NCBI RefSeq assembly: GCF_000012745.1
Contig: NC_007404.1
Coordinates: 2,790,001 to 2,854,000, forward strand
DNA length: 64,000 nucleotides
Reading direction: 5' to 3'
Origin: Thiobacillus denitrificans ATCC 25259
GTDB lineage: Bacteria > Pseudomonadota > Gammaproteobacteria > Burkholderiales > Thiobacillaceae
This document shows positions 34,727 to 52,885 of the stretch, piece by piece; within the stretch, counting starts at the first letter, position 1; every line of letters begins with the position of its first letter. A program made the translations under genes and the position numbers. The notes under the pieces are model-generated. The model did no database searches and was not told the DNA's origin. It saw nothing but the letters and a program-made list of their open reading frames with translations.

Positions 34727-34996
34727 ATGTCTGAAGTCAACCAGGAATTGCAGAACGAGGTAGCCGAGCTGATCGTCTCGGCCCTCAACCTCGACACCCG
34801 TCCCGACGAAATCGCAGCCGACGCGCCGCTCTACGGCGAGGGCCTGGGGCTCGATTCGATCGACATCCTGGAAGTGGCGCTGGTCGTTTCCAAACGCTAC
34901 GGCTTCCAGTTGCGCGCGGACAACGCGGACAACGTCCGCATCTTCAGTTCGCTCGCCAACCTGACCCGGCACATCGCGGCGAATCGCAGCAAATGA
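34727..34996 (+). CDS. Acyl carrier protein of aryl polyene synthesis
   Basis: The 89-residue ACP carries the phosphopantetheine serine at S44 in GLGLDSIDILEVAL. It resembles the second-type ACP of aryl polyene clusters (GLGLDSIDILE instead of the fatty-acid DSLD). It should hold the hydroxybenzoyl starter or the growing polyene. It is the first gene after the TATAAT box, and its stop overlaps the next gene as ATGA. It is the only ACP in the cluster. Confidence 0.9.
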   Translation: MSEVNQELQNEVAELIVSALNLDTRPDEIAADAPLYGEGLGLDSIDILEVALVVSKRYGFQLRADNADNVRIFSSLANLTRHIAANRSK

Positions 34997-35652
34997 GGAT
35001 CACGCCGGCCCGCGCCGCGCGCGGCGTCGCCATCGCGGGCGCGGTGATCGGCTACCCGGTGGCCGCGCACTACAGCACGACCGTGCCGGCCGCGCCGGCC
35101 GCGCTAGGCGTCGCGGTGTCGCTGCTGCCGTCGCTGCTGATTCTCGTGGCCCTCGCGTGGCGTTCGCCGCGGCGCGGTGCGGCGCTGCTCGTCTGCGGAG
35201 CGGTCGCGGCGCTGCTGTGGGGCTTCTGGGGCGCGCTCGAGCGCAATTTCAACTGGGTCTATTTCCTGCAGCACGCGGGCACCAACGTCATGCTTGCGCT
35301 GGCCTTCGGCGCGACGCTCGCGCGCGGGCGAAAGGCCTTGTGCACCCACTTCGCCGAAGCCGTGCACGGCGGCGCGCTCACGCCCGAGGTGCTGCGCTAT
35401 ACCCGCCAGGTCACCGCGGCCTGGACGCTGTTCTTCGTCGCGCTGAGCGTCGTTTCGAGCGTGCTTTTCTTCTTTTTCAGCATCGAGGCCTGGTCGGTCT
35501 TCGCCAACTTCCTGACCCTGCCGCTGGTGTTGCTGATGTTCGCGGCCGAATACGGCGTGCGGGTGCTCAAGCTGCCGAAGGTCGAACGCCACGGCATCCT
35601 GGACGGCATCCTCGCTTTCTGGAAAACGCCGCCGGGCACGTCCCCGCGCTGA
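34993..35652 (+). CDS. Predicted membrane protein of aryl polyene clusters (COG4648-like)
   Basis: The 219-residue protein has six or so spans and the segment ALERNFNWVYFLQHAGTNV near 80-98, typical of the conserved membrane protein found in aryl polyene clusters between ACP and ligase genes. No enzymatic motif is known. It may support assembly or anchoring of the polyene complex in the inner membrane. It is translationally coupled to the ACP. Confidence 0.8.
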   Translation: MRITPARAARGVAIAGAVIGYPVAAHYSTTVPAAPAALGVAVSLLPSLLILVALAWRSPRRGAALLVCGAVAALLWGFWGALERNFNWVYFLQHAGTNVMLALAFGATLARGRKALCTHFAEAVHGGALTPEVLRYTRQVTAAWTLFFVALSVVSSVLFFFFSIEAWSVFANFLTLPLVLLMFAAEYGVRVLKLPKVERHGILDGILAFWKTPPGTSPR

Positions 35653-35665
35653 GCGCCCCGACGCG

Positions 35666-36997
35666 ATGCCGAGCCTGCCGCTTGTCGCCCACCGCCCCGA
35701 CGCCGTTGTGGCATGGCGCGGCGCCACGCCGGTCACGGCCGCGCAGTTTGCCGGCGAGGTCGCCGCGCTCGCTGCGGCGCTGCCGCCCGGACGGCACGTC
35801 CTCAACCTCTGTCGCGACCGCTACCGTTTCGCCGTCGCCTTCGCGGCGTCGATCGTGAGCGCGCGCGTCAGCCTGCTGCCGCCGACCCATACGCCAGAGA
35901 TGGTGCGCCAGATGCACGCGCGGGCGTCGGACTGCTTCTGCATCGTCGACCACGACGCGGACGTCGGCGCGATGCCGGTCTTCCGCTACCCCGAACTCGC
36001 TGCCGCCCCACCCGCCCAGGTTCCCGAAATCGACGTCACACAGGTCGTCGCCGAGGTCTTTACCTCGGGGTCGACCGGCACGCCGCTGCCGCACCCGAAA
36101 CGCTGGGGCCCCCTCGTCGAGAACGTGCGCGCGGAGGCTGCGCGGCTCGGTGTCGGCCCCGGCCACGCGCTCGTCGGCACGGTCCCGCCGCAGCACATGT
36201 ACGGGCTCGAGTCGACCGTGCTGATGCCGCTGCAGAGCGGGGCCGCCTTCCACGCCGGCCACCCGTTCTATCCGGCCGACGTCGCTGCCGCGCTCGCCGA
36301 ATTGCCGCGGCCGCGCGCGCTCGTCACGACGCCTTATCACCTGCGCGCCCTGCTCGCAGCCGACGAGGTACTGCCCGCCGCCGATCTGCTCGTCTCCGCG
36401 ACCGCGCCGCTGTCGGCGACGGTCGCGGCCGAGGCCGAGGCGCGTTTCGGCGCGCCGCTGTTCGAGATCTACGGCTGCACCGAGACCGGCCAGCTCGCGT
36501 CGCGCCGCCCCGCACTCGACGCGGCGTGGCAGACCCTCGGCGCGGTGCGCCTGCGGCGAGACGGCGAGTCGGCGTGGGCCGAGGGCGGTCACGTCGAACG
36601 CCCGACCCGTCTCGGCGACGTCGTCGAACTCGCGGACGAAGACGGGCGCCGTTTCCTGCTCCACGGCCGCCACGCCGACCTCGTCAACATCGCCGGCAAG
36701 CGCACGTCGCTCGCCTACCTGAATCACCAGCTTCACGCGATTCCGGGCGTGCGCGACGGCGCCTTCGTGCTGCCGCCGGACGACGCCGAGGCCAACCCCG
36801 AACGCGTACGACGCCTGAGCGCGCTCGTCGTCGCCCCCGACCTCACCCCGGCGGCGCTGATGCAAGCCTTGCGCGCGCGCATCGACCCGCTCTTTCTGCC
36901 GCGCCCGCTCGTCTTCGTCGACGCGCTGCCGCGCAACACCACGGGCAAGCTCGCGGCCGCCGCCGCACAAGCCCTGGTCGCGGAGGCCGGCGCGTGA
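35666..36997 (+). CDS. AMP-dependent acyl/aryl ligase for aryl polyene starter
   Basis: The 443-residue ANL-superfamily enzyme has the phosphate loop FTSGSTGTPLPHPKRW near 132-147, the EIYGCTETG adenylate motif near 269-277, and the C-terminal lysine in LPRNTTGKLA. It is short, as are ligases of aryl polyene clusters. It should activate hydroxybenzoate (made by the chorismatase at 50478) and load it on the ACP. It starts 13 bases after the previous stop and ends overlapping the dehydratase. Confidence 0.88.
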   Translation: MPSLPLVAHRPDAVVAWRGATPVTAAQFAGEVAALAAALPPGRHVLNLCRDRYRFAVAFAASIVSARVSLLPPTHTPEMVRQMHARASDCFCIVDHDADVGAMPVFRYPELAAAPPAQVPEIDVTQVVAEVFTSGSTGTPLPHPKRWGPLVENVRAEAARLGVGPGHALVGTVPPQHMYGLESTVLMPLQSGAAFHAGHPFYPADVAAALAELPRPRALVTTPYHLRALLAADEVLPAADLLVSATAPLSATVAAEAEARFGAPLFEIYGCTETGQLASRRPALDAAWQTLGAVRLRRDGESAWAEGGHVERPTRLGDVVELADEDGRRFLLHGRHADLVNIAGKRTSLAYLNHQLHAIPGVRDGAFVLPPDDAEANPERVRRLSALVVAPDLTPAALMQALRARIDPLFLPRPLVFVDALPRNTTGKLAAAAAQALVAEAGA

Positions 36998-37311
36998 GCG
37001 AGCACTCACTACCGCTGGCGATCGCGGCCGACCACGCGGCCTACGCCGGGCATTTCCCGGGCCGTCCGATCCTGCCCGGCGTCGTGCTGCTCGACGAGGC
37101 GCTGCACGCGCTCGCCGTGGCCGACGGGCGCAAGGCTGCGACCGGCCAGATCCGTGCGGCCAAATTCCTCAGCCCGGTCACGCCGGGCGAGGGCTTGCGT
37201 CTCGATTACGCCGAGACCGCGCCGGGCGTTTTCCGCTTCACGGTCGCGGCCGGCACGCGCACGGTCGCGAGCGGCGTCTTCGCGTTCGACGACCCCGGGA
37301 GCGCGGCATGA
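36994..37311 (+). CDS. FabZ-like 3-hydroxyacyl-ACP dehydratase
   Basis: The 105-residue hot-dog-fold protein has the catalytic segment HFPGRPILPGVVLLDEAL near 21-38 (His at 21, acidic residue in DEA). It forms the double bonds of the polyene after ketoreduction. Length is that of aryl polyene dehydratases, shorter than FabZ. Start is GTG at 36994, overlapping the ligase stop as GTGA. It works together with the second dehydratase at 44736. Confidence 0.88.
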   Translation: MSEHSLPLAIAADHAAYAGHFPGRPILPGVVLLDEALHALAVADGRKAATGQIRAAKFLSPVTPGEGLRLDYAETAPGVFRFTVAAGTRTVASGVFAFDDPGSAA

Positions 37312-38240
37312 GCACGCCGGATCTGGCCGCTCGCGTCGAGTGGGCGCGACGTGGCGAGCGCAGCAACATGGCGATGCTGCGGATCATGACGTGGATTTCG
37401 CTGCGCCTCGGGCGACGCGTCGCGCGCGTCGTGCTGCGCGGCATCAGCGTTTATTTTCTGCTCTTCGCGCACGCCGCGCGGCGCGCGTCGCGCATCTATC
37501 TGGCACGCGCGCTCGGCCGGCCGCCGACGCTGCGTGACGTGTTCCGCCATTTCCACAGCTTTGCCGCGTGCATCCACGACCGCGTCTACCTCCTCAACGA
37601 CCGCTTCGATCTGTTCGAGATCGAAATCCACGGCCGCGAGGCGATCGACGCCGTGCTCGCGCAGGGGCGCGGCGCCTTCCTGATGGGTGCACACCTCGGC
37701 AGCTTCGAGGTCCTGCGCGCGGCCGGCCGCCACCAGGCCGGGCTGCGCGTCGCGATGGTCATGTACGAAGACAACGCCCGCAAGATCAACCGCGCGCTCG
37801 CGGCGATCAACCCGGCCGCAGTGCGGGATGTGATCCCGCTCGGCCGGCTCGACTCGATGTTGCAGGTCGAAGCCGCGCTCGACGCCGGTGGCGTGCTCGG
37901 CATGCTCGGCGACCGCTCGCTCGACGCCGGCGCGACGCTCGCGCTGCCGTTTCTCGGACACAGCGCCGAATTCCCGCTCGGCGCGATGCGGCTCGCCGCG
38001 GTGCTCAAGCGTCCGGTCCTGCTCATGGCCGGGCTTTATCTGGGCGGCAACCGCTACGCGATCCATTTCGAGCCGCTCGCCGATTTCACCGCGCTCGCAC
38101 GCGCCGACCGCGAGCGCGCCGTGAACCGGGCGGTCGCCGACTACGCCGCCTGCCTCGAGCGGCACTGCCGCGCGGCGCCCTACAACTGGTTCAATTTCTT
38201 CGATTTCTGGCGGCCGCCCGCCGAGCGAGGCCGCGCATGA
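37308..38240 (+). CDS. LpxL/HtrB-like lysophospholipid acyltransferase
   Basis: The 310-residue protein belongs to the lipid A late-acyltransferase family. It has a membrane anchor near 40-55, the catalytic-type segment GAHLGSFEVLRAAG near 126-139 (H-x4-E form), MLGDRSLD near 203-210 and a C-terminal YNWFNFFDFW. In aryl polyene clusters this enzyme is thought to attach the polyene to, or elongate, a membrane lipid. Both ends overlap neighbours by 4 bases. Confidence 0.87.
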   Translation: MSTPDLAARVEWARRGERSNMAMLRIMTWISLRLGRRVARVVLRGISVYFLLFAHAARRASRIYLARALGRPPTLRDVFRHFHSFAACIHDRVYLLNDRFDLFEIEIHGREAIDAVLAQGRGAFLMGAHLGSFEVLRAAGRHQAGLRVAMVMYEDNARKINRALAAINPAAVRDVIPLGRLDSMLQVEAALDAGGVLGMLGDRSLDAGATLALPFLGHSAEFPLGAMRLAAVLKRPVLLMAGLYLGGNRYAIHFEPLADFTALARADRERAVNRAVADYAACLERHCRAAPYNWFNFFDFWRPPAERGRA

Positions 38241-38821
38241 AACTTTCCCGCCAGGCCCGGCGTCTGCTCGCCGCGGCCGTACTGGCCCTCGGCTGCGTCG
38301 GCGAGGTCGCGGCGCTCGACGTCGGCGAGCTCATGACGACGCTCGCGCACAGCACGCACGGCGCAGCGACCTTCACGGAAAAGAAATATCTCGCGATCCT
38401 CGACGCCCCGGTCGAGTCGTCGGGCGAACTGCGGTTCGTTCCGCCGGCGCGCCTCGAAAAGCTGACGTTGAAACCGAGCCGCGAACGCCTCGTGCTCGAC
38501 GGCGACGTGCTTACGGTCGAACGCGGGCGGCGCACGCACGTGCTCGCGCTCAAGGACTACCCCGAGGTCGCGGGCATGATCGAAAGCATCCGCGCGACGC
38601 TCGCCGGCGACCGCAGCGCGCTCGAGCGCGTCTACCGGCTGAGCGTCTCCGGCAGCCGTGCGCGCTGGTCGCTCGCGCTCGTTCCGCTCGACGTCCGGAT
38701 AGCCCGCGTCGTCGCGCGTATCCGCATCGACGGCGCCGAGGGTGAGGTCCGCACGGTCGAGATCGTGCAGGCCGACGGCGACCGCTCGGTCATGACGGTC
38801 GAGAAGGCGGCCGCCCCTTGA
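38237..38821 (+). CDS. LolA-like periplasmic lipid carrier
   Basis: The 194-residue protein has a signal peptide (about 1-25, ending EVAALD) followed by a LolA-type fold: FTEKKYLAILDAPVESSGEL and RLEKLTLKPS segments. In aryl polyene clusters it probably carries the lipidated polyene across the periplasm to the outer membrane, paired with the RND exporter that follows. Translationally coupled on both sides (ATGA and TTGA). Confidence 0.85.
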   Translation: MKLSRQARRLLAAAVLALGCVGEVAALDVGELMTTLAHSTHGAATFTEKKYLAILDAPVESSGELRFVPPARLEKLTLKPSRERLVLDGDVLTVERGRRTHVLALKDYPEVAGMIESIRATLAGDRSALERVYRLSVSGSRARWSLALVPLDVRIARVVARIRIDGAEGEVRTVEIVQADGDRSVMTVEKAAAP

Positions 38822-41139
38822 GCCGCAGCGGGCGACTCGCGCTTGCCGTGTGGCTCGTTTTCCTCGCGGCCTGCGGCTGGCTCGCGACCCGCGCCGACTA
38901 CACGGCCGACCTCTCGGCCTTCCTGCCGCGCGCGCCGACGCCCGAACAGCAATTGCTCGTCGACCAGCTGAAGTCGGGCGTCGCCTCGCGCCTGATCCTG
39001 ATCGGCATCGAAGGCGGCGACAGCACCGCGCGCGCGCGCGCCTCGCGCGAACTCGCGGCGAGGCTGCGCGCCGACCCGCGTTTCCTGCACATCGCGAACG
39101 GCGAGACGCCGGCACTGCAACGCGATCGCGAAATCCTGTTCGCGCATCGCTACGTGCTGAGCCCGGCGGTGGACGCCGGGCGCTTCACGGCCGAAGGGCT
39201 GCGCGCCGGCGTCGAGGACAGCCTCGGCCTGCTCGCAACCTCGACCGGGCTCGTCAGCAAGGCCTTGTTGCCGCGCGACCCGACCGGCGAATTCCTCCAG
39301 GTGCTCGACGCGCTCGAAGACGGACAGCAGCCCCGCCTTGTCGACGGGACGTGGGCCTCGCGCGACGGCACGCGCGCGCTGCTCCTCGCACGCACCCGCG
39401 CCGAAGGCGCCGACACCGATGGACAGGAGCAGGCTGTCGACGCCATCCGCAGCGCATTCGCGGCCGTAGGCGCGCCGCCGCTGCGCCTCGCGATGACCGG
39501 CCCCGGACCGTTCTCGGTAACCGCGCGCGCGACGATCAAGGACGAGGTCACGCTGCTCTCGGGCCTCGGCGCCCTTGCGATCGTCAGCCTGCTGCTCGCG
39601 GTGTATCGCTCGCCGCACGCGCTGCTGCTGAGTCTCGTGCCCGTGGTCTCGGGGGCGCTCGCCGGGGTCGCCGCGGTGAGCCTCGGCTTCGGCGTCGTGC
39701 ACGGCGTCACGCTCGGCTTCGGCACGGCGCTGATCGGCGAAGCGGTCGACTATGCGATCTACCTGCTCATGCAATCGCGGCAGGCAGCGGCAGACCCGCG
39801 CGCGTCGACGAAGGCATTCTGGCCGACGGTGCGGATCGGCGTGCTGACCTCGGTCTTCGGCTTCGCCTCGCTGCTTTTCTCCGGCTTTCCCGGCCTCGCC
39901 CAGCTCGGCCTTTACGCGATCGCAGGGCTCGCCGCGGCCGCACTCGTCACGCGCTTCGTGCTGCCTCATCTGGTACCGGCGACGCTCGAGCCGCCCGCCG
40001 TCGATCGGCTCGGGCAGCGCCTGCTCGGCTGGAGCGAACGGGCACCACGGCTGCGCGGCATCGTGCTCGCTCTCTTCGTCGCCGCCTGTGGCGTCATCGC
40101 ATTCGAGCACGGCGGTATGTGGAACCGCGAGCTCGCGGCCCTGAGCCCGGTTCCGGCCGCCGACCAGGCGCTCGATGCAGCGATGCGGGCCGACCTCGGT
40201 GCCCCCGACGTCGCCCACCTCGTGATCGTGAGCGCGCCGAGCGCGGAGGCCGCGCTCGCGGCGAGCGAACGCGCGGCGCGCGCGCTCGACGCGCTCGTCG
40301 CCGCCGGCACGATCGCGGGCTACGAAAGCCCGGCGCGCTACCTGCCGAGCGCGGCGACGCAGCGCGCGCGGCTGGCCGCGCTGCCGGACGACGCACAATT
40401 GCGCCAGCGCTTCGCCGCCGCGGCGGCCGGCCTGCCGCTGCGCGCCGAGCGTTTCGAGCCTTTCTTCGCGGACGTCGCGGCTGCGCGGCACGCGGCGTCC
40501 TTGACCCGTAGCGATCTCGAAGGCAGCGCGCTGGCCGCAGGCGTCGACGCCCTCCTGGTGCGCTCGTCCGGCGGCTGGACCGCCCTCATGCCCCTGCGCG
40601 CCGCGAACGGCGCGCTCGACGCAGCCGCGGTCAAGGCCGCGCTCGCCGCGGCCGGCGCCCACGACGCCCATTTCGTCGATCTCAAGCGCGAGTCCGATCG
40701 CCTGCACAGCGGCTATCTGCGCGAAGCGAGCCTGCTGTCGCTCGCTGGCCTCGCGGCGATCCTCGCGCTGCTCGGGGTCGTCACGCGTTCGCCGCGCCGC
40801 GTGTTCCATATCGTCGCGCCGCTCGCGGCGGCCGTCGCCGTCGTCGTCGCCGGCCTCGTGCTTGCCGGGCGGCCGCTCATCATCCTGCACCTGGTCGGCA
40901 TGCTGCTGGTGGTCGCGGTCGGCTCGAACTACGCCCTGTTCTTCGACCAGGGTGCCGCCGCGGGCGGTGTCCAGGCGCGCACGCTGGTTTCGCTCTTGCT
41001 CGCCAGCGCGACGACGGTCGCGGGCTTCGGCGTGCTGGCGTTTTCGAGCGTGCCGGTGCTCAACGCGATCGGCACGACGGTCGGCCCCGGGGTGGTCCTC
41101 GCCCTGGTCTTTTCCGCGATCCTCGCGCGCCGCCCATGA
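38818..41139 (+). CDS. RND/MMPL-type exporter of aryl polyene lipid
   Basis: The 773-residue protein has two MMPL-like halves, each with a periplasmic domain followed by a cluster of spans (about 250-400 and 640-770). Segments include LGFGTALIGEAVDYAIYLLM and LVVAVGSNYALFF, typical of the RND exporters in aryl polyene clusters. It should move the polyene lipid from the inner membrane to the LolA-like protein. Start is TTG at 38818, overlapping the previous stop (TTGA); no ATG or GTG lies near. Confidence 0.87.
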   Translation: MSRSGRLALAVWLVFLAACGWLATRADYTADLSAFLPRAPTPEQQLLVDQLKSGVASRLILIGIEGGDSTARARASRELAARLRADPRFLHIANGETPALQRDREILFAHRYVLSPAVDAGRFTAEGLRAGVEDSLGLLATSTGLVSKALLPRDPTGEFLQVLDALEDGQQPRLVDGTWASRDGTRALLLARTRAEGADTDGQEQAVDAIRSAFAAVGAPPLRLAMTGPGPFSVTARATIKDEVTLLSGLGALAIVSLLLAVYRSPHALLLSLVPVVSGALAGVAAVSLGFGVVHGVTLGFGTALIGEAVDYAIYLLMQSRQAAADPRASTKAFWPTVRIGVLTSVFGFASLLFSGFPGLAQLGLYAIAGLAAAALVTRFVLPHLVPATLEPPAVDRLGQRLLGWSERAPRLRGIVLALFVAACGVIAFEHGGMWNRELAALSPVPAADQALDAAMRADLGAPDVAHLVIVSAPSAEAALAASERAARALDALVAAGTIAGYESPARYLPSAATQRARLAALPDDAQLRQRFAAAAAGLPLRAERFEPFFADVAAARHAASLTRSDLEGSALAAGVDALLVRSSGGWTALMPLRAANGALDAAAVKAALAAAGAHDAHFVDLKRESDRLHSGYLREASLLSLAGLAAILALLGVVTRSPRRVFHIVAPLAAAVAVVVAGLVLAGRPLIILHLVGMLLVVAVGSNYALFFDQGAAAGGVQARTLVSLLLASATTVAGFGVLAFSSVPVLNAIGTTVGPGVVLALVFSAILARRP

Positions 41140-41987
41140 ACCCGCCGCCGCTCCATGCTCCACGTTCCTGGCGCCCGGCGCCGCTTCTGTGGACGACTTT
41201 CATGCTGCACGGCGGCGTCATCGGCTGGCTGCTCGCGGCGCCGCAGCATTGGCCCTGGGCGCTCGGTACGCTCGCGGTCAACCATCTGGCCTTGACCCTC
41301 GCCGGGTTGCTGCCGCGCAACGGCGCGCTCGGCCTCAACTGGTGGCGCCTGCCGCGCGCCGCATCCGCCGGACACGTCGCACTCACGATCGACGACGGTC
41401 CCGATCCCGAGGTCACCCCGCAGATCCTCGACCTGCTCGACCGCTACGCGGCGCGCGCGAGCTTTTTCTGCATCGGCGAAAAGGCGCTGCGCCACCCGGA
41501 GCTGTGCCGCGAGATCGTGCGCCGCGGCCACGCGATCGAGAACCACAGCCAGCACCACCGTCATCATTTTTCGCTGTTCGGCCCGCGGCGCATGGCGCGT
41601 GAAGTCGACGACGGCCAGGAGACCCTCGCCGCGCTGACCGGCGAGCGCCCGCTGTTCTTCCGTCCGACCGCCGGCCTGCGCAACCCCTTCCTCGAGCCCA
41701 TCCTCGCGCGCTTGGGCCTGCGCCTCGCAAGCTGGACGCGCCGCGGCTACGACACGCGCAACCGCGACGCCGACGACGTGGCCCGCCGGCTGACCGCGAC
41801 GCTCGCGGCGGGCGACATACTCCTGCTGCACGACGGCAACGCCGCGCGCACCGCAGCCGGAGAGCCCGTCATCCTCGCCGTGCTGCCGTGCGTCCTCGAC
41901 GCGATCGCGGCCGCCGGCCTGCATTCCATCACCCTGCGCGCCGCGCTCGAACTCACCACTCGCCATGCCGACCGACATTCTGCGTAA
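41136..41987 (+). CDS. Polysaccharide deacetylase-family (NodB) protein
   Basis: The 283-residue protein has two N-terminal spans followed by a NodB carbohydrate-esterase-4 domain: LTIDDGPDPEVTP near 83-95 (metal and catalytic Asp), HAIENHSQHHRHHFSLF near 131 (HxxxH metal pair), FFRPTAGLRN near 167. Such enzymes remove acetyl groups from GlcNAc-type sugars. A deacetylase within an aryl polyene operon may process a sugar on the polyene lipid or on the glycosyltransferase product. Both ends overlap neighbours (4 and 23 bases). Confidence 0.85.
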   Translation: MNPPPLHAPRSWRPAPLLWTTFMLHGGVIGWLLAAPQHWPWALGTLAVNHLALTLAGLLPRNGALGLNWWRLPRAASAGHVALTIDDGPDPEVTPQILDLLDRYAARASFFCIGEKALRHPELCREIVRRGHAIENHSQHHRHHFSLFGPRRMAREVDDGQETLAALTGERPLFFRPTAGLRNPFLEPILARLGLRLASWTRRGYDTRNRDADDVARRLTATLAAGDILLLHDGNAARTAAGEPVILAVLPCVLDAIAAAGLHSITLRAALELTTRHADRHSA

Positions 41988-43928: not shown

Positions 43929-43929
43929 G

Positions 43930-44739: not shown

Positions 44740-45203
44740 GCACGGCAGACGACACGGTCCTCGACCGCGGCTGGTTGCTGGCGCATATCCCGCACCAGGG
44801 CAGCATGTGTCTGCTCGAGCGCATCGACGCCTGGGACGCGACAAGCATCCGCTGCAGCGCGGGGAGCCACCGCGCGCCGGACAATCCCCTGCGCGCCCAT
44901 GGCCGCCTCGGCGCGGCGAGCGGGATCGAGTACGCCGCGCAGGCAATGGCCGCGCACGGCGCGCTGCTCGCCGCGGCCGAGGCGGCGCCGCGCGCCGGCT
45001 ATCTGGCGAGCGTGCGCGAAGTCGAGCTCAAGGTCGCGCGGCTCGACGACGTCGCAGGCGATCTCACGGTCCAGGCCGGGCGTGTCTCCGGCGACGACAA
45101 CACGATCCTTTACCGTTTCAGCGTCGCCGGGCCGACCGGCCTGCTCGTGAGCGGACGCGCGATCGTCATGCTCGACGCTGAAAAAACCCGGAGTCCCCTA
45201 TGA
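44736..45203 (+). CDS. Second aryl polyene dehydratase, ApeP-like hot-dog protein
   Basis: The 155-residue hot-dog protein has IPHQGSMCLLERID near 17-30 and HGRLGAASGIEYAAQAMAAHG near 55 (His and Glu in the active cleft), as in the larger dehydratase of aryl polyene clusters. It probably forms a heterodimer with the 105-residue dehydratase at 36994. Start is TTG at 44736 (TTGA overlap with the previous stop); the next gene starts inside its stop (ATGA). Confidence 0.85.
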   Translation: MSTADDTVLDRGWLLAHIPHQGSMCLLERIDAWDATSIRCSAGSHRAPDNPLRAHGRLGAASGIEYAAQAMAAHGALLAAAEAAPRAGYLASVREVELKVARLDDVAGDLTVQAGRVSGDDNTILYRFSVAGPTGLLVSGRAIVMLDAEKTRSPL

Positions 45204-45919
45204 AACGCGCACTCGTGACCGGCGGCAGCGGCGGCATCGGCGCCGCGATCTGCCGGCGACTCGCCGCCGACAGCTGCCACGTCTACGTCCACGCCAACCG
45301 GAATCTCGCCAGGGCGAGCGCGCTCGCCGACGAAATCCGCGCGGCCGGCGGCGCGGCCGAAGCCGTCAGTTTCGACGTCACCGATGTCGCGGCATGCCGC
45401 GCGACGCTCGAGGCGCTGGTCGAGAGCGAGCCGATCCAGATCCTCGTCAACAATGCCGGCATCCACGACGACGCGGTATTCCCGGGGATGCGCGCCGAAC
45501 AGTGGCATCGCGTGCTCGACGTCTCGCTCAACGGCTTCTTCAACGTGACCCAGCCGCTGACGCTGCCGATGATCCGCAGCCGCTGGGGGCGCATCGTCAA
45601 CATCACCTCGGTCGCCGGGCTCACCGGCAACCGCGGGCAGGCCAACTACGCCGCGGCCAAGGGCGCGCTGCACGCCGCGACCAAATCGCTTTCGCTCGAA
45701 CTCGCGAGCCGCGGCGTGACCGTCAACGCGGTCGCGCCGGGCGTGATCCGCACCGCGATGAGCGACGGCGTCTTCGACGACGCGTCCATCGCGGCGCTGG
45801 TGCCGATGAAGCGCGCCGGGCAGCCCGAAGACGTCGCCAGCGCCGTCGCATTCCTCGCCTCGGACCAGGCGAGCTACATCAGCGGGCAGGTGCTGTCGGT
45901 CAACGGAGGCATGATCTGA
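45200..45919 (+). CDS. 3-ketoacyl-ACP reductase (FabG-like)
   Basis: The 239-residue SDR has the NAD(P) loop TGGSGGIGAA near 7-16, NNAG near 83-86, and the catalytic S-Y-K in ITSVAGL...NYAAAKGAL. It reduces the beta-keto group in each elongation cycle. Its final residues SGQVLSVNGGMI are those of FabG. It is the last of the coupled biosynthetic genes; a 23-base gap separates it from the antiporter. Confidence 0.92.
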   Translation: MKRALVTGGSGGIGAAICRRLAADSCHVYVHANRNLARASALADEIRAAGGAAEAVSFDVTDVAACRATLEALVESEPIQILVNNAGIHDDAVFPGMRAEQWHRVLDVSLNGFFNVTQPLTLPMIRSRWGRIVNITSVAGLTGNRGQANYAAAKGALHAATKSLSLELASRGVTVNAVAPGVIRTAMSDGVFDDASIAALVPMKRAGQPEDVASAVAFLASDQASYISGQVLSVNGGMI

Positions 45920-45942: not shown

Positions 45943-47271
45943 GTGCATCAGAGCGAAGCGCTGCTGTTCTTCACCCTGCTTCAACTGACCGTAATCGTGC
46001 TCGCCGCGCGCGCCGGCGGCGCGCTCGCACGGCGCGTCGGCCAATCGCCGGCGGTCGGCGAAATCATCGTCGGCATCCTGCTCGGACCCTCGCTGTTCGG
46101 CTGGCTCGCGCCGGATCTCTTCCGCACCGTCTTTCAGGCGTCGTCGCCTGAGCCGATGCAGGTCGTGTCGCAGATCGGTCTGGTGCTGCTGATGTTCCAG
46201 ATCGGCCTCGAATTCGATTTCGCGCATCTCGCCGCGCGCAACAACCGGCGCGCCGTGCGCTACGTCGCGACGGCGAGCATGATCGCGCCCTTCGCGCTCG
46301 GCTTCGGTTTCGGCTACCTCAGCGCGCCGCTGCTGTCGCCGGGCGCCGACGTCCTCGGCTCGGCGCTGTTCGTCGGCACGGCATTTTCGATCACGGCGCT
46401 GCCGATCCTTGGCCGCATCATGATCGAGCTCGAGATCACGCGGCACCCGCTCGCGGTGATCGCGATCAGCGCGGCGGCGATCAACGACGTCGTCGGCTGG
46501 CTGCTGCTCGCCTTGGTCACCGCACTGACGCTCGCGCAGTTCAGCGCGGCGGGCTTCGCCCTCAAGCTGCTGCTCGTCGTCGGCTTCTTCGCCTGCTGGT
46601 GGTTCGTCGTCCGCCCGCTCATGAAACGCGTGATCCACGCGAGCCAGCGGGCGTCGGCAACGGTCAGCAAGGATAAAGGGCGCGACGGACTCAGCCACAA
46701 TCTGCTGGGGGTCCTGTTCGCGGCGATCTTCCTGTCGGCGATCGCGACCTACCAGCTCGGCATTTTCGCGATCTTCGGCGGTTTCATGATGGGCGTCGTG
46801 CTCCACGACGAGCATGAACTCATCGCGGCGTGGCGCGAGCGCGTCGGCCATTTCGTGACGGTGTTCTTCCTGCCGGTGTTCTTCACCTACACCGGGCTGC
46901 GCACCGACATCGTCGGCCTCGATTCGGCCGAAGCCTGGGGCTGGTGCGCGCTGCTGATCGCGCTCGCCAGCCTCGGCAAGTTCGGCGCGAGCTATCTCGC
47001 CGCGCGCTGGGCGGGCCTGTCGCGCGACGAGAGCAAGGTGATCGGCATCATGATGAACACGCGGGCGCTGATGGAGCTCATCGTCATCAACGTCGGCTAC
47101 GACCTCGGCGTGATTTCGCAGCAGCTCTTCACGATGCTCGTGCTGATGGCGATCTTCAGCACCGTCATCACGATGCCCGGCCTGCGGCGCTGGTTGCCGC
47201 GCATTGGCGTCGGCCTGCCCGCCGGCGCGTCGCCGCTGCCGCAGGCGGCCGCCCAGTCTTCGACGTCCTGA
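45943..47271 (+). CDS. Cation:proton antiporter (CPA2, Kef/NhaS-type membrane part)
   Basis: The 442-residue protein has 12 or 13 spans and CPA2 motifs GEIIVGILLGPSLFG near 30-44 and AAINDVVGW near 181-189 (ND pair of the ion site). There is no TrkA-N cytosolic domain, so it is a short CPA2 member. Start is taken as the GTG at 45943; a CTG at 45916 overlapping the fabG-like stop is also possible. Its role in pigment synthesis is unclear; it may only be co-transcribed. It converges with the methyltransferase gene, 15 bases apart, without a clear terminator. Confidence 0.87.
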   Translation: MHQSEALLFFTLLQLTVIVLAARAGGALARRVGQSPAVGEIIVGILLGPSLFGWLAPDLFRTVFQASSPEPMQVVSQIGLVLLMFQIGLEFDFAHLAARNNRRAVRYVATASMIAPFALGFGFGYLSAPLLSPGADVLGSALFVGTAFSITALPILGRIMIELEITRHPLAVIAISAAAINDVVGWLLLALVTALTLAQFSAAGFALKLLLVVGFFACWWFVVRPLMKRVIHASQRASATVSKDKGRDGLSHNLLGVLFAAIFLSAIATYQLGIFAIFGGFMMGVVLHDEHELIAAWRERVGHFVTVFFLPVFFTYTGLRTDIVGLDSAEAWGWCALLIALASLGKFGASYLAARWAGLSRDESKVIGIMMNTRALMELIVINVGYDLGVISQQLFTMLVLMAIFSTVITMPGLRRWLPRIGVGLPAGASPLPQAAAQSSTS

Positions 47272-47286: not shown

Positions 47287-48057
47287 TCAACCCGGCTTCA
47301 CCGCCTGATATTCGGCGAGTATGGAAAGCGCGCGCGTCTCGACGTGCCGGCGCACGGCGAGGAAACCCGCGTCCTCGAGCGTCGCGATGACCCCGGCGGG
47401 CGGCACGCAGGCCTCGATCGTGTCCCAGTAGTAACGCCACAGCCGGGCCGATTCGGCGCTGCCGCCGACCAGGCGCGCGAGTACCGGCACGGCGCCCCGC
47501 ATATAGGCCTTGAGCAGCGCGCGGCTCCAGGCGCGCTCGGGCTTGGTGATCTCGAGCAGGCACAGTCGGCCGCCCGGCCGGAGGACGCGGTGGAATTCGG
47601 CGAAGGCAGCCGACAGATCGCCGATGTGGCGCAGCGCGTAGCCCATGCTGAGGAAATCGAAGCTCGCGTCGGGAAACGGTATCGACTCGGCCCGGCCTTC
47701 GACCAGGCGGACGCCAGGCAGGTCCGCGGCCGCCATCATGCCGAGGCTCGGGTCGACGCCGACGACGAGCGCGGCATCGCCGACGCGCTTCACGGCTTCG
47801 CGCGCGACCAGACCGGTGCCGACGCCGACGTCGACGACGCGCATGCCCGGGGCGAGACCGGCGCGCTGCAGCGCCTGGCCGCGGTACCACGGCCCGCTGC
47901 CGAGGGCGAGCAGGCGGTCGATGCGGTCGTAGTCGGACGCCGTGCGATCGAACAGCGCGCCGACGAAACGTCGTCGCGCGTCTTCGTCGGCGTAGTAGTC
48001 GGTAAGCGGCGGGTGTGGCGCGCGCACGGGGGGGGCGGGATCGGACGGAGCGTTCAT
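47287..48057 (-). CDS. UbiE-like SAM-dependent methyltransferase
   Basis: The 256-residue protein looks like UbiE/MenG: RVVDVGVGTGLVAREA near 74-89, VVGVDPSLGMM near 99-109, FDFLSMGYALRHIGDL near 134-149 and RVLRPGGRLCLLEITKP. It differs from true UbiE in having a glycine-valine change in motif I (DVGVGTG) and lies in the aryl polyene cluster, so it most likely methylates the aryl head or ring rather than ubiquinone. It overlaps the glycosyltransferase by 4 bases. Confidence 0.85.
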   Translation of the reverse strand: MNAPSDPAPPVRAPHPPLTDYYADEDARRRFVGALFDRTASDYDRIDRLLALGSGPWYRGQALQRAGLAPGMRVVDVGVGTGLVAREAVKRVGDAALVVGVDPSLGMMAAADLPGVRLVEGRAESIPFPDASFDFLSMGYALRHIGDLSAAFAEFHRVLRPGGRLCLLEITKPERAWSRALLKAYMRGAVPVLARLVGGSAESARLWRYYWDTIEACVPPAGVIATLEDAGFLAVRRHVETRALSILAEYQAVKPG

Positions 48058-48836
48058 CGGGGGGCGGGACCTCGCGCCGTGAGGCGGCGCAACACGAGCA
48101 GCGGAAGACGCATGACGAAGCCTGCCATCAGGCGGATGTGCATCCACGTCAGCAAGGCGTTGTCGCGCAGGTAGTTGAAATGCGAGACGCCGCCTTCGGC
48201 GGCCGCGGGATACTTGACCGGGGCGGCCAGGTTGACCGGGCGTACGCCGCGCCAGCACAGCCGCACGACGGCTTCCGGGTCGAAATCGAAGCGCCGCATC
48301 CAGCGCTGCCCGCGCATGACGCGGCGCAGGGGTTCGATCGGATAGACGCGAAAGCCGTAGAGCGAGTCGCCGATTCCCATCCACAGCGTCTCGAGATTCG
48401 CCCACCCGTTCGAGACCTTGCGCCCGTGCACGCGCAGGGCCGGCGCGTCCGCGTCGAACACGGGAACGCCGAGCACCATGACGTCGGGCGCGGCCGCCGA
48501 GGCCGCCATGAAGGCCGGAATCAGTTGCGCGGGATGCTGGCCGTCCGAATCCATCGTCAGCACGTGGGTGTAGCCCGCCGCAGCGGCGCGATCGAGGCCG
48601 TGGAGCACGGCCGCGCCTTTGCCCTGATTACGCGACAGCCGCAGTACGTTCAAGCCCGGGTCGGCCGCGGCCATCTCCTGCAGTCGCTCGGCGCTGCCGT
48701 CGGTGCTGCCGTCGACGACGACCCACACCGGCGACCAGACCGCGCGCGCCGCGCGCACCGTTTCGTAGACGCGCGGGCCCGGGTTGTAGCTCGGGATGAG
48801 GACGAGATGGCTGGCCGAAGCCGCGGGCGGCGTCAC
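48054..48836 (-). CDS. Family 2 glycosyltransferase
   Basis: The 260-residue protein has the GT2 layout: LIPSYNPG near 13-20, VVDGSTDGS near 41-49, TMDSDGQHP near 93-101 (DxD), and a QRWMRRFDFDPEAVVRL acceptor part near 175-191. No membrane-spanning tail is obvious. In aryl polyene clusters such enzymes glycosylate the polyene or the lipid. Start is GTG at 48836, overlapping the acyltransferase stop as GTGA. It may act with the deacetylase in the other arm. Confidence 0.88.
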   Translation of the reverse strand: MTPPAASASHLVLIPSYNPGPRVYETVRAARAVWSPVWVVVDGSTDGSAERLQEMAAADPGLNVLRLSRNQGKGAAVLHGLDRAAAAGYTHVLTMDSDGQHPAQLIPAFMAASAAAPDVMVLGVPVFDADAPALRVHGRKVSNGWANLETLWMGIGDSLYGFRVYPIEPLRRVMRGQRWMRRFDFDPEAVVRLCWRGVRPVNLAAPVKYPAAAEGGVSHFNYLRDNALLTWMHIRLMAGFVMRLPLLVLRRLTARGPAPR

Positions 48837-49663
48837 GTCAGACGCGGACGCACGGGTTCGCTCGCCGGCGGCGCGTCGGGCAACAGGAAATGCGGCGCTT
48901 CGCGCAGCGCGTCGACGAAATAGCGCTCGAGCTCTTCGGTGAACGGCCCGGCTTTCTCCGGTGGCTCGAAGCGGCGGCCGAGGCGGACGCGATAGGTGAT
49001 CGGCATGGCCGGCCGCCGGAACAGCGGCCAGCCTTTGCTAAGGTAGGCGGAGTCGGTCTCGATCAGCACGGTCTGGACCGGCACCCGGGCGCGCGCGGCG
49101 ATCAACCCGGTCGTGCCGGTGCAAGGGTTGACCGGCCAGCGCCGCGTGCGCGTGCCTTCGGGGAAGAGCAGCAGATGACTGCCGTTCTGCAGCTCGGCGA
49201 CGGCCTGACGGATCATGCTGAGCTGGGCGTCGTTGCGGATGTAGCCGGCGAGCCGCGCGCCCGCGCCGAGAAAGACGTTGTCGACGATGTCGGCCTTCAT
49301 GATGCACGCCATCCTGGGCAAACGCGACAGCACCATCAGCGCGTCGAGCAGACAGGGATGGTTCGGCGCGATGATGAGCGGCCCTTCGTCGCGCAGCGCG
49401 TCGAGCGCGGAGAGATCGAAGCGGCAGGCGCCGATCGCCGACAAGGCGCCGAGGTAGATACGGAAACCGCTCGCGATCGCCCAGCGCCCGAGCGGGGTGG
49501 CCCAGCGCCGGGGCAGGACGTGGTAAAGCGGCACCGACAGCGTCGACCAGGTCAGCGAGATCGCACCGAGCAGCGCGAGACCGAACCACAGCGCGAAGTA
49601 TTCGTAGAGCCGGTGCAGCACCGACTTCAACAGTCCCAACAGGGATGCCGCACCTGTCCTCAC
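48833..49663 (-). CDS. PlsC-like 1-acyl-glycerol-phosphate acyltransferase family protein
   Basis: The 276-residue protein has one or two N-terminal spans (about 18-48) and the acyltransferase motifs NHPCLLDALMVLSR near 101-114 (a variant of HxxxxD), LLLFPEGTRTRRW near 164-176. It probably adds an acyl chain to the polyene or its glycerol or sugar carrier. The N-terminal histidine box reads NHPCLLD, close to NHxxxxD and compatible with activity. Start is GTG at 49663. Confidence 0.87.
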   Translation of the reverse strand: MRTGAASLLGLLKSVLHRLYEYFALWFGLALLGAISLTWSTLSVPLYHVLPRRWATPLGRWAIASGFRIYLGALSAIGACRFDLSALDALRDEGPLIIAPNHPCLLDALMVLSRLPRMACIMKADIVDNVFLGAGARLAGYIRNDAQLSMIRQAVAELQNGSHLLLFPEGTRTRRWPVNPCTGTTGLIAARARVPVQTVLIETDSAYLSKGWPLFRRPAMPITYRVRLGRRFEPPEKAGPFTEELERYFVDALREAPHFLLPDAPPASEPVRPRLT

Positions 49664-50499
49664 TCGTCCGCCTCGACCCGCGTCGACGATTCGCCGAGTA
49701 TGAAGGCGACGCCGACGCCGGCGGCGAAATAGCTGTCGCGGCGCACCAGCGGGCTGTCGATGAAACCCGCGCCCTTGAGACTATCCCAGCGCGCGAACGC
49801 GCCGACCCAGTATTTCGGGTAACGCTTCGACAGCGCGGCGAGAAACTGCGTGCCGGCGTAGCCGCCCTCGGCGTCGAAGGCCGGGCGGTCGGCGGTCGCA
49901 TACTGCGGCGCGACCGAATAGAAATAGTCGTGGTTGCGCTCGGAGCCGAACATCGGCCCTGCGAGGAGGCCGAGTTTCCAGCCGGCAAGCCCGGCCGGAT
50001 CGGCGAGGTCGAGATTGACGCGCGGCGAGAACACCCAGCCGACGTCGTCCACGCCGCCCGCCACCGTGAGCGCCGCACGCAGCGGCAGCCGCAGGTCGAG
50101 CCGCCTGCGGCGGTCGGCACTGCGCCACAGCTTGAATTCGAGCGAAGGCCCGAGTTCGACCGTCGGCTGCAGATCGGGCATGCCCGCGCGCGCCTCGCTG
50201 TCGTCGCTGTTGACCGGCAGCGACGCGCCGACGCTGACGTTGAGCTCGACGTGTTCGCTGTCGAAAAAGGTACCGCGGATGCCGTCCCGGTCGGCCTTGA
50301 GAAAGGTGCCGCGATAGACGAAATACGGAAACGGAATCCCGTACAGGCTCGATTCGTCCGAACCCCGATAATCGGGGAAGGCCAGCGCGCTCATTCCGAC
50401 ACCGGCTTCCCAGAGCGGCTTGTCCGCCGCCCACGCGAAACCCGGTACGGCGGCCGCGACCAGGGCGGCCGCGGCGATCAAACGGATACGGCAGCGCAC
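49660..50499 (-). CDS. MipA/OmpV-family outer-membrane protein
   Basis: The 279-residue protein has a signal peptide (about 1-25, ending PGFAWAA) and the beta-rich MipA/OmpV pattern: FPDYRGSDES near 43, FVYRGTFLKADRDGIRG near 61, and many amphipathic strands to the end. Inside the aryl polyene cluster it may help place the pigment in the outer membrane or bind murein enzymes. GTG at 50499 with a GAGGAG site fixes the start. It overlaps the end of the chorismatase gene by 22 bases. Confidence 0.87.
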   Translation of the reverse strand: MRCRIRLIAAAALVAAAVPGFAWAADKPLWEAGVGMSALAFPDYRGSDESSLYGIPFPYFVYRGTFLKADRDGIRGTFFDSEHVELNVSVGASLPVNSDDSEARAGMPDLQPTVELGPSLEFKLWRSADRRRRLDLRLPLRAALTVAGGVDDVGWVFSPRVNLDLADPAGLAGWKLGLLAGPMFGSERNHDYFYSVAPQYATADRPAFDAEGGYAGTQFLAALSKRYPKYWVGAFARWDSLKGAGFIDSPLVRRDSYFAAGVGVAFILGESSTRVEADE

Positions 50500-51539
50500 G
50501 GCGGTCTCCTCGTCAAAAATGCCTGCGCCCCGGGACCGAGCGCGTGGCCACCCGAGGCCTCGATCTCGACCAGAAGGTCGGCCCGGCAGACGTCGGCGAG
50601 CAGGAACACCGCGGTCACATCGGCGCCGACCGTACGGGCGAAGACGTCGCGCACGGTCGCGAGGTCTTCCACGCGGCGCACGTAGACCTTGTACGCGAGC
50701 GCATCGAGGCCGAAGCGCGCGGACGGCGTCCGGCGCGCGGCCTCGGCGGCCACGGCCGCGATGTTGCACAGCGATTCGCGCGTCTGCGCCGCGACGTCGC
50801 CGCGGTGCAGCGTCTCGTGGCCGACGATGCTCGCGGTGCCGGAAACGAACAGCATGTCCTGTCCGTCGAGCCGGACCAGACCGGCCCGCGAGAAGGTCGG
50901 GCTGCGCGGGCCGTAGGCGTCCGGATAATGATAGGCGCTGACCTGGCGCGGATTCTCGACGCTGGCGAGCGGCGCGCGCGCGGCGAGAAACGCGAGATGC
51001 AGCGGCCCGCCCGCCGAGCCGAGCGCGCAGGCGGCAGGCACCGTGCCGATGACCGCATGGCCGTGGGCGAGGAAGGCGTCCTGCCGGCCGACGTTGAACT
51101 GGCGATAGCGTTCGCTCGCGTGGTGCTCGGCATTGATCGCTGGGAAGTAGTTCCAGAAGCGCAACACGTCTCGGTAGCCCCGCGCTTCGAGCAGCGCGAA
51201 CACCGACCCGTAGGCGGCCTCGGTCGCGGCCTGCAGCGGCGTCTTGCCGTCGTCGCCGGCGGCTTCGTCGAGTTCGACGCAGCCGAACAGCAGATTCGCG
51301 CCTTCGCGGTAGCGTATCGCCCCCGCGCGGCCCGGCTCGAGCGGCTCGCTGCAGCGCCAGATCTCGCATACCGGCGCCTGCCCGGGCGGCGACGCGATGT
51401 CGACGGCGAGTAGCGGCAGGTCCGGCAGCACGGGTGCGGCGGCGCGCGGCGCAAAGCAGATGCCACCGAGCACGTCCGCCAGCTCGCCGGGGCGGGCGTG
51501 CGCGAGACGCGAAGCCGGGAGGTAATCCAGTTGCAGCAT
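50478..51539 (-). CDS. Chorismatase (chorismate lyase/3-hydroxybenzoate synthase type), XanB2-like
   Basis: The 353-residue protein belongs to the chorismatases (FkbO/Hyg5/XanB2 group). The strongest signature is ENPRQVSAYHYPDAYGP near 184-200, followed by SPTFSRAGLVRL; NVGRQDAFLAHGHAVIGTVPAA is also typical. XanB2 of Xanthomonas makes 3- and 4-hydroxybenzoate, the starter of the xanthomonadin pigment. Its position next to halogenase and polyene genes makes 3-hydroxybenzoate starter supply the best assignment. The ATG at 51539 is 8 bases after the halogenase stop. Confidence 0.88.
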   Translation of the reverse strand: MLQLDYLPASRLAHARPGELADVLGGICFAPRAAAPVLPDLPLLAVDIASPPGQAPVCEIWRCSEPLEPGRAGAIRYREGANLLFGCVELDEAAGDDGKTPLQAATEAAYGSVFALLEARGYRDVLRFWNYFPAINAEHHASERYRQFNVGRQDAFLAHGHAVIGTVPAACALGSAGGPLHLAFLAARAPLASVENPRQVSAYHYPDAYGPRSPTFSRAGLVRLDGQDMLFVSGTASIVGHETLHRGDVAAQTRESLCNIAAVAAEAARRTPSARFGLDALAYKVYVRRVEDLATVRDVFARTVGADVTAVFLLADVCRADLLVEIEASGGHALGPGAQAFLTRRPPCAAVSV

Positions 51540-51547
51540 GGTCGCGG

Positions 51548-52885
51548 TCAGCGCGCGCCCTCGACGTCTTCGACGTAGCGGATGTTGAAGCGCCGGCGCT
51601 TCCACGCCGCGAGCGTGCGCTTCAGTTGCCGCAGCGACGCGAGGTAGTAGATCGCCTTGAACATCCACAGCGAGGGCCAGATCGGCGTCTTGCCGAAAAT
51701 GTCGCCCGCGAGCACCGAGAGCAGGGCTTCCTTAACGCGGAAAACGTTGTGCGGCGACATGAAGAGCTCGCGCATGGTCGGATTGGTCACGCGGTAGATG
51801 AACCACGAAAACTCGCGCGGCCCGTGCGTCATCACGCGGTCGAAACGCTTGAGCGCGCGGGCCGCACGGCGCGGTTCGCACAGGCACACGTCGATCGCGT
51901 CGGCGCCGGCGAAGGCGCTGTTCATCGCGAGCATCACGCCCGACGAAAACACCGGATCGACGAAGGCGTACGCGTCGCCGAGCAGCAGATAGGCCGCGCC
52001 GTGGCTGTGGTCGCAGGCGTAGGAAAAGTTACCGGTCGCCTCGACGTCGGAGACGAGCTCGGCGTCCTCGAGCCGCTCGGCGAGCGCCGGGCACAGCGCG
52101 ATCTGATCGAGGAAGAACTCGCGCACCGGTTTGTCGCGCGCCTTGACGCGGTGCGGCCAGGTCACCGCGCCGACGCTCGTCGTGCCGTCGGCGAGCGGAA
52201 TGAACCAGAACCAGCCGTGCTCGAACCAGAAGATCGTGATGTGGCCGGCCATCCTGCCGGGATTGCGCGTGGCGCCGCGGAAGTGCGCGTACAGGGCCGA
52301 ACTGTTGTGTTTCGGGTTGCGCTGTTTCGCCTTCAGGCGATTGCCGAGCACGGTGTCGCGGCCGGTCGCATCGACCAGGAAGCGGCAGCGCCAGGTCTCG
52401 CGGCGGCCGTCCTCGTGTTCGGCAGCGACGACCGCGCCGGCGGCGCCGGGCAGCAGTTCGACTTCGCGAACGCGACACGCCTCGACCACCTCGGCGCCCC
52501 GCCGTGCCGCGTTGCGGATCAGGATCTCGTCGAACTCCGAACGGCGCACCTGATACGCGCTCGGCATCGTCTTGTTCCACGCGTCGGCGAACTCGAACGC
52601 CTGCCGATGTGTATGCCAGGGTGAGACGAACTCGGCCCCGTACTTGACCATGCCGATGGCTTCGACCTCGTTGCGCACGCCGAGCCGGTCGAGCAGCGGG
52701 AGGTTGGCGGGCAGGAGCGATTCGCCGATATGGAAACGCGGGTGGCGCGCCTTTTCGAGCAGCGTGACGCGATGGCCTTTTTCTGCCAGCAGCGCGGCGG
52801 CGGTCGACCCTGCAGGGCCGCCGCCCATGACGAGCACGTCGCAATGATGATCGGCGGTGTCGGGCAAGCGGGGGCCGTGGGACAA
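51548..52885 (-). CDS. Flavin-dependent halogenase
   Basis: The 445-residue flavoprotein has the FAD loop GGGPAG at 21-26, the halogenase hallmark WxWxIP as W225-F-W227-F-I229-P230, a lysine at 81 in GMVKYGAEF at the place of the catalytic lysine, and GDAYAFVDPVFSSGV later. It should chlorinate or brominate the aryl head of the polyene; xanthomonadins of Xanthomonas carry bromine. Start is TTG at 52885 with a GGAG site 7-8 bases before. It is the first gene of the minus arm, and a TAAAAT box lies about 70 bases upstream. Confidence 0.88.
   Translation of the reverse strand: MSHGPRLPDTADHHCDVLVMGGGPAGSTAAALLAEKGHRVTLLEKARHPRFHIGESLLPANLPLLDRLGVRNEVEAIGMVKYGAEFVSPWHTHRQAFEFADAWNKTMPSAYQVRRSEFDEILIRNAARRGAEVVEACRVREVELLPGAAGAVVAAEHEDGRRETWRCRFLVDATGRDTVLGNRLKAKQRNPKHNSSALYAHFRGATRNPGRMAGHITIFWFEHGWFWFIPLADGTTSVGAVTWPHRVKARDKPVREFFLDQIALCPALAERLEDAELVSDVEATGNFSYACDHSHGAAYLLLGDAYAFVDPVFSSGVMLAMNSAFAGADAIDVCLCEPRRAARALKRFDRVMTHGPREFSWFIYRVTNPTMRELFMSPHNVFRVKEALLSVLAGDIFGKTPIWPSLWMFKAIYYLASLRQLKRTLAAWKRRRFNIRYVEDVEGAR

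Follow-up and report, generated by a model that had tools for sequence, protein, structure and literature searches.

A nearly complete xanthomonadin/arcuflavin-type aryl polyene gene cluster with a halogenase homologue in Thiobacillus denitrificans

Xanthomonadin- and arcuflavin-type pigments have been described together with their gene clusters in Azoarcus sp. BH72, Xanthomonas campestris and Lysobacter enzymogenes (PMC3949708, PMC3691225). In Azoarcus sp. BH72, disruption of arcK or arcT abolished the pigment, purified ArcB was reported to form 3-hydroxybenzoate (3-HBA), and ArcT to activate it (PMC3949708). In this study, we analysed a cluster of this kind in Thiobacillus denitrificans ATCC 25259. 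It lies at 34727-52885 of a stretch of 64,000 nucleotides, hereafter the window, that corresponds to bases 2790001-2854000 of the genome, a single contig of 2,909,809 bp; positions are those of the window unless the genome is named.

Gene content, gene order and catalytic motifs

Profiles from Pfam and NCBIfam, together with sequence motifs, identify 20 genes in this interval that belong to an aryl polyene cluster of the xanthomonadin/arcuflavin type (Table 1). Both markers of the cluster type are there, a PRK09185-type ketosynthase lying directly beside a half ketosynthase that resembles a chain-length factor (CLF-like). They are accompanied by a ketoreductase, two dehydratases, an acyl carrier protein (ACP), an AMP-dependent ligase, acyltransferases, a LolA-like protein and an MMPL exporter. 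The locus is a real, nearly complete and ordinary member of the described xanthomonadin/arc-type pigment clusters. The original prediction, made from the letters of this DNA, had announced a complete aryl polyene set with a chorismatase and a halogenase; all the genes that it named were found in place, but the word complete has to be qualified by a leucine at position 156 of the CLF-like protein, to which we return below.

The likeness to Azoarcus sp. BH72, whose genes were compared through their descriptions in Table 1 of PMC3949708 and not through their sequences, extends to both gene content and gene order. There, arcK-J-I-H-G-F-E-D-C-B-A correspond to a ketosynthase, a CLF-like protein, a dehydratase, a reductase, a Na/H antiporter, one further gene, a glycosyltransferase, an acyltransferase, MipA, a XanB2-type chorismatase and a halogenase, and the interval 42708-52885 repeats this order from arcK to arcA, with a UbiE-like methyltransferase in the place of arcF. 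The second BH72 locus, arcM-N-O-P-Q-R-S-T-U-V (PMC3949708), compared for its genes other than arcO, corresponds to 34727-42699 in reverse. The comparison with known aryl polyene and xanthomonadin clusters that the original prediction had proposed thus gives a match of gene order with two arc loci, by the published table. Together with the domains, this correspondence supports its proposal of a hydroxybenzoate-primed, xanthomonadin-like polyene cluster. Literature searches, which covered open-licence papers, brought up no earlier account of this cluster, and an earlier report or database listing is possible.

Catalytic motifs are intact in all ten window proteins that were tested by alignment with relatives, the CLF-like protein standing outside this count. 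The Cys-His-His triad of the ketosynthase is present in 34/34 aligned proteins, with CSSG in the window protein versus CSSS in the other 33. Similarly, the Ser-Tyr-Lys residues of the reductase are found in 46/46 proteins and the carrier serine in 13/13.

Gene context in other genomes

We searched a sample of 300 genomes of the same order, own genome included, and found halogenase matches in 50 of them at a threshold of E 1e-40; 34 of these align over almost their whole length with at least 50% identity, and 2 more align in part. A strong chorismatase is present in 25 of 36 halogenase genomes versus 16 of the 264 others, once six of the 47 chorismatase genomes had been dropped from this count for E-values weaker than 1e-50; the Fisher test of this contrast takes no account of how closely the genomes are related. 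The two genes lie at most 3 kb apart in 21 of the 25 genomes that have both.

Named halogenase loci, taken as the best 80 of 575, give a similar picture; neither Xanthomonas nor Azoarcus BH72 is among the names of these 80. The halogenase is flanked by relatives of the glycosyltransferase in at least 71 loci, the acyltransferase in at least 67, the chorismatase in at least 50, the ketoreductase in at least 46, the ketosynthase in at least 42, the CLF-like protein in at least 41, MipA in at least 34 and the UbiE-like methyltransferase in at least 27, these counts being lower bounds as many loci end at contig edges. Because relatives of the GT2 glycosyltransferase and of the acyltransferase recur beside so many halogenases, the grouping is more than chance. 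In 25/80 loci the fetched flank of the halogenase holds a glycosyltransferase or acyltransferase and lacks a chorismatase match, and in 5/80 it holds none of these three. In L054, L056, L064-L066, L069 and others, the acyltransferase follows the halogenase at a distance of at most 150 bases and the flank holds no chorismatase match. Pairwise distances of the halogenase and of seven other cluster proteins are correlated (0.44 to 0.88, the highest value being that with the chorismatase, n=29), although host relatedness alone can yield such values.

Among the best 80 of 575, the loci most similar to the window halogenase are titled Thiobacillaceae, Hydrogenophilales or Thiobacillus. The halogenase is also found with cluster neighbours among the listed records titled Acidithiobacillus, Sideroxydans, Gallionella and Thiobacillus; one short Halothiobacillus contig carries it without any cluster neighbour. 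The original prediction regarded such a cluster as unexpected outside Xanthomonas and in a chemolithotroph. Neither surprise holds, since polyene clusters were already described in Azoarcus, Dechloromonas, Variovorax and the iron oxidiser Sideroxydans lithotrophicus (PMC3949708), and the halogenase occurs in Acidithiobacillus, Gallionella and Thiobacillus records. The idea of a cluster special to this strain was likewise rejected, as the halogenase recurs in such settings across many proteobacteria. Halogenase relatives were also seen on seven large plasmid records (H1-H7) of Caballeronia, Variovorax, Azospirillum and Roseomonas, all predicted to be non-mobilizable.

The halogenase gene itself is an optional decoration of the cluster, since some genomes with the ketosynthase and the chorismatase give no match to the halogenase. 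One of them, G167, belongs to the same genus: it has the ketosynthase (80% identity) and the CLF-like protein (66%), both on another contig, the chorismatase (67%), MipA (72%) and the acyltransferase, glycosyltransferase and UbiE-like methyltransferase (78-83%), and it shows no halogenase match at 1e-10. Its chorismatase-side genes lie at 15657-19501 of L123, with a TrkH gene upstream of the chorismatase. More broadly, sixteen order genomes have a chorismatase without a halogenase match at E 1e-40. A repeat search at 1e-10 covered these genomes minus G159, which was outside the ketosynthase search, and G221, which has no ketosynthase match; none of the 14 matched the halogenase and all 14 have the ketosynthase. 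This repeat confirms the absence at a laxer limit, the earlier order search with the same query serving as positive control. Within the family, the halogenase was detected at 1e-40 in none of the eight other sampled genomes, while it is carried by L042-L046 and L109, named records with the titles Thiobacillaceae, Thiobacillus or Hydrogenophilales. Gene content, gene order, motifs and conservation of the locus are direct observations.

Predicted pathway, starter unit and halogenation

We consider it likely that this near-complete arc/xan-type aryl polyene locus is working and gives a yellow membrane pigment. Each chemical step is proposed by analogy with homologues. The chorismatase would convert chorismate into 3-HBA, which the AMP-ligase would activate and load onto the ACP. 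The ketosynthase/CLF pair, the reductase and the dehydratases would then lengthen 3-HBA with malonyl units into a conjugated polyene, and the head group would be methylated by one or both methyltransferases. The acyltransferases, LolA, the MMPL exporter and MipA would take part in esterifying the polyene to a lipid and placing it in the outer membrane. The two methyltransferases and the glycosyltransferase that had been put forward as tailoring genes are indeed present (Table 1). The second methyltransferase resembles UbiE, which we take to be a C-methylase. That it might be the genome's own UbiE was rejected, a protein at genome 235919-236599 scoring 285.7 bits versus 95.7 bits.

Several points weigh against this reading. 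In the CLF-like protein, Leu156 (codon CTC, 44395-44397) stands in a column that holds glutamine in 32/39 proteins, and the glutamine is kept in three close Thiobacillaceae/Hydrogenophilales loci (L042, L044 and L045) as well as in the family genomes G167 and G201. In the chorismatase, the equivalent of Gly-164, third of the residues expected of a 3-HBA-forming enzyme, is Ala175, and the same alanine is found in 30/30 relatives; moreover, the reaction of chorismatases is described as not accurately predictable by alignment (PMC3949708). In the order sample, 11 of the 36 halogenase genomes have no strong chorismatase. Finally, arcuflavin, which comes from an arcA-bearing cluster, was reported as a nonbrominated compound of formula C41H52O4 (PMC3949708).

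The Leu156 column sits 46 residues past a serine that is present in all 39 CLF-like proteins compared. In the Lysobacter homologue, S120 and Q166 have the same spacing, the Q166A mutant made no pigment, and this glutamine is said to be common to all homologues (PMC3691225). As the spacing from the conserved serine, by which alone it is judged, is identical, the column is probably equivalent to Q166. Loss of a required glutamine from the CLF-like protein could mean that this strain has an inactive or altered cluster. We regard this as unlikely: every other catalytic motif tested is intact, the match to Q166 is by spacing alone, and the glutamine is absent in 7/39 of the proteins compared, with leucine in two Acidithiobacillus loci, arginine in G034, methionine in G061, and glutamate or serine in other loci. 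Since these loci also carry other residues, the cluster may tolerate the loss or may be impaired by it in this strain; we retain a probably working locus.

With respect to the starter unit, the XanB2-type chorismatase of the original prediction proved to be of the right family (FkbO/Hyg5), although it scores 248.1 bits against TIGR04444, under the cut-off of 325; none of the 300 order genomes exceeds this cut-off, all chorismatase matches falling below it. Gly-164, Gly-231 and Cys-318, in Nat-hyg5 numbers, are the residues named for the 3-HBA-forming CH-II enzymes (PMC7170507). When these numbers are transferred to the window protein by offset and compared with Hyg5 (structure 5ag3), two of the three (the equivalents of Gly-231 and Cys-318) are kept, as is the catalytic glutamate; at the Ala175 site, both Hyg5 and FkbO have glycine. 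XanB2-type enzymes yield both 3-HBA and 4-hydroxybenzoate (4-HBA) (PMC3949708, PMC5069965), so that this chorismatase could chiefly feed 4-HBA to ubiquinone, as reported for XanB2. This seems very unlikely here, as the genome has a UbiC homologue at genome positions 486955-487431 (96.5 bits, cut-off 23.6), which makes a pigment role likelier than a ubiquinone role.

The genome holds a single C-terminal domain of ketoacyl-ACP synthase III (KAS-III), a domain that DarB presumably carries. A FabG-like match lies close by, so this sole KAS-III is probably FabH. No DarB-like KAS-III was found in the genome, DarA not having been searched for, and no dialkylresorcinol ester is therefore expected. Sharing its polyene genes with Azoarcus (PMC3949708), the locus might still be thought to give an arcuflavin-like dialkylresorcinol ester of the polyene; we hold this to be highly improbable.

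The active-site lysine and the WxWxIP motif are conserved motifs of flavin-dependent halogenases with a known role. Both are intact in the window protein (K81 and W225-x-W227-x-I229-P230), in line with the original prediction, and so are GESLLP and FSSG. K81 and WxWxIP are invariant in 30/30 order-sample proteins, the window protein counted, and in 80/80 proteins of a second set made up of the window protein and 79 of the 80 named loci (L107 was left out for its coverage and stops). The closest solved structures by sequence are halogenases, which make up the top 5 of 23 matches in one search and the top 7 of 34 in another; the matches include 8zop, 7fco (ChlB4), 3e1t, 5buk and 5dbj (PltA). Several of these halogenases, PltA among them, are presumed to act on carrier-bound rings. 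Non-halogenases are found among the relatives too: the QhpG profile (176 bits, under its cut-off of 240), the dihydroxylase 7ctq and 3nix.

The ArcA-type halogenase would be a tailoring enzyme that the pathway can do without; its substrate is probably a carrier-bound phenol, used together with O2 and halide. The reading that the cluster normally makes a xanthomonadin-like pigment bearing Br or Cl has, in our estimate, slightly less than an even chance. The intact motifs speak for it, and the genomes with ketosynthase and chorismatase that lack the halogenase fit a tailoring gene. Moreover, the presence of the halogenase tracks bromine in described clusters: Xanthomonas clusters have it and pigments with 0-2 Br, while the Lysobacter cluster has none and a pigment without a bromine pattern (PMC3691225). 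Against this, BH72 has arcA yet the mass of its pigment fits C41H52O4, with no halogen (PMC3949708). Prediction of a halogenated product from the gene set is therefore not supported, for BH72, with both arcA and arcB, gave a nonbrominated pigment, its ArcA being known by description (PMC3949708). Gene content does not secure a halogenated product, and the motifs, being invariant in the aligned sets, cannot separate halogen makers from non-makers.

Two further explanations of the nonbrominated arcuflavin (PMC3949708) were weighed, and each is possible but doubtful to a similar degree. Firstly, the ArcA-type enzyme could be some other flavin enzyme of polyene making, the product never being halogenated, as the non-halogenases among its related profiles and structures might suggest. 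The invariance of the lysine and of WxWxIP in both sets argues against this, as does the fact that the top solved-structure matches are named halogenases; by our own reading, the four oxygens of arcuflavin also leave no space for an extra hydroxyl. Secondly, the halogenase could be conditional, modifying the head group only when both oxygen and bromide are present, plain arcuflavin being then due to the growth medium. Flavin halogenases require reduced flavin, O2 and halide (PMC11840605), so denitrifying cells would be expected to make plain pigment; any halogenation should be limited to cells supplied with oxygen and a suitable halide. The cluster as such is ordinary, and it is what ArcA-type halogenases do that the locus brings into question. 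T. denitrificans is an obligate chemolithoautotroph and facultative denitrifier that lives with or without oxygen. If the enzyme is conditional, this organism would swap halogenated and plain pigment with its mode of respiration. Such a host, together with same-genus genomes that have or lack the halogenase, would make the role of the enzyme directly testable.

Extent of the locus, neighbouring genes and described clusters

The borders of the cluster, 34727 and 52885, coincide with gene ends. The genes form a plus-strand run from the ACP through the ketoreductase (34727-45919), continued by the antiporter to 47271, and a minus-strand run from 52885 to 47287 with the halogenase first and the UbiE-like methyltransferase last. 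Probable starts are internal to some open reading frames, as for the chorismatase (about 51539) and MipA (about 50499). Promoter and terminator scans gave no signal above shuffled sequence.

Table 1. Genes of the aryl polyene cluster, with window positions and the evidence for each assignment
Gene product	Position	Strand	Evidence
Acyl carrier protein, arcV-like	34727..34996	+	Pfam PP-binding; NCBIfam PRK09184 139.8 bits (cut-off 70); serine in GLDSIDI; Ser44 in 13/13
Membrane protein, arcU position	34993..35652	+	weak IspA-like similarity, under curated cut-offs
AMP-dependent ligase, arcT-like, predicted 3-hydroxybenzoate loading	35666..36997	+	Pfam AMP-binding; TSGSTG and TGK motifs
Small hotdog dehydratase, arcS position	36994..37311	+	Pfam FabA 29.4 bits (cut-off 23); ApeI-like 27.6 bits, just under cut-off 28.5; His20 in 12/12
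Lipid A-type acyltransferase, arcR-like	37308..38240	+	Pfam Lip_A_acyltrans; HX4E
LolA-like outer-membrane carrier, arcQ-like	38237..38821	+	Pfam LolA_3 85.9 bits; NCBIfam LolA2_flexi under cut-off
MMPL/RND exporter, arcP-like	38818..41139	+	Pfam MMPL
Polysaccharide deacetylase-family protein, arcN-like	41136..41987	+	Pfam Polysacc_deac_1
S-adenosylmethionine methyltransferase, arcM-like	41965..42699	+	Pfam Methyltransf_23/25
Ketosynthase, arcK-like	42708..43928	+	NCBIfam PRK09185 549.2 bits (cut-off 407); Cys171-His301-His335
CLF-like half ketosynthase, arcJ-like	43930..44739	+	Pfam Ketoacyl-synt_2; Leu156
3-Hydroxyacyl-ACP dehydratase, arcI position	44736..45203	+	position and motif only (His20, Glu65 in 45/45); no Pfam or NCBIfam match
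3-Ketoacyl-ACP reductase, arcH-like	45200..45919	+	NCBIfam FabG NF004200 365.1 bits (cut-off 273); Ser-Tyr-Lys
CPA2 Na+/H+ antiporter, arcG-like	45943..47271	+	Pfam Na_H_Exchanger
UbiE-like methyltransferase, arcF position	47287..48057	-	UbiE-type profile 126.6 bits (cut-off 158.35)
GT2 glycosyltransferase, arcE-like	48054..48836	-	Pfam Glycos_transf_2
Phospholipid acyltransferase-like protein, arcD-like	48833..49663	-	Pfam Acyltransferase; HX4D
MipA outer-membrane protein, arcC-like	49660..50499	-	Pfam MipA; start estimated
Chorismatase, arcB/XanB2-like, predicted 3-hydroxybenzoate synthase	50478..51539	-	Pfam FkbO_Hyg5-like_N 134.3 bits
Flavin-dependent halogenase homologue, arcA-like	51548..52885	-	K81, WxWxIP; profile and structure matches

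Upstream of the ACP, a P-type ATPase gene at 31011-33641 fits Tbd_2740 (PMC3753534). Between the two, at 34034-34642, lies the gene of a 202-residue protein that matches no Pfam family and whose N-terminus is signal-like; guessed by its position, it may be Tbd_2741. The latter, located beside Tbd_2740, was reported to be one of the 16 genes with the strongest upregulation during nitrate-dependent oxidation of Fe(II)/U(IV) (PMC3753534). As to expression of the cluster itself, the words polyketide, oxoacyl, halogenase and acyl carrier are absent from the main text of that paper. Elsewhere in the window, an ArsR-type helix-turn-helix is fused with a rhodanese domain in a single open reading frame (30239-30901, minus strand), and a dihydroxy-acid dehydratase (IlvD) and an aldose 1-epimerase domain share one open reading frame at 18898-21684, by gene fusion or assembly effect.

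Altogether, the locus takes its place beside three described systems. Like the Lysobacter enzymogenes xanthomonadin-like cluster, it has a ketosynthase/CLF-like pair, a chorismatase homologue and other type II polyketide synthase parts (PMC3691225); it differs in that L. enzymogenes has no halogenase and a pigment without a bromine pattern, and in that the glutamine of its CLF-like protein is probably a leucine in the window. Compared by description with the xan/pig cluster of Xanthomonas campestris (PMC3949708, PMC3691225), it likewise has a chorismatase, an AMP-ligase, a ketosynthase with an unusual CLF, a ketoreductase, a dehydratase, an acyltransferase and a halogenase, but brominated products are known from X. 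campestris and none from T. denitrificans. The arc genes of Azoarcus sp. BH72 are divided between two unlinked loci, whereas their counterparts form a single locus in the window. Across many aryl polyene loci, the halogenase is kept with intact motifs although the pigment described for the betaproteobacterium BH72 is nonbrominated.

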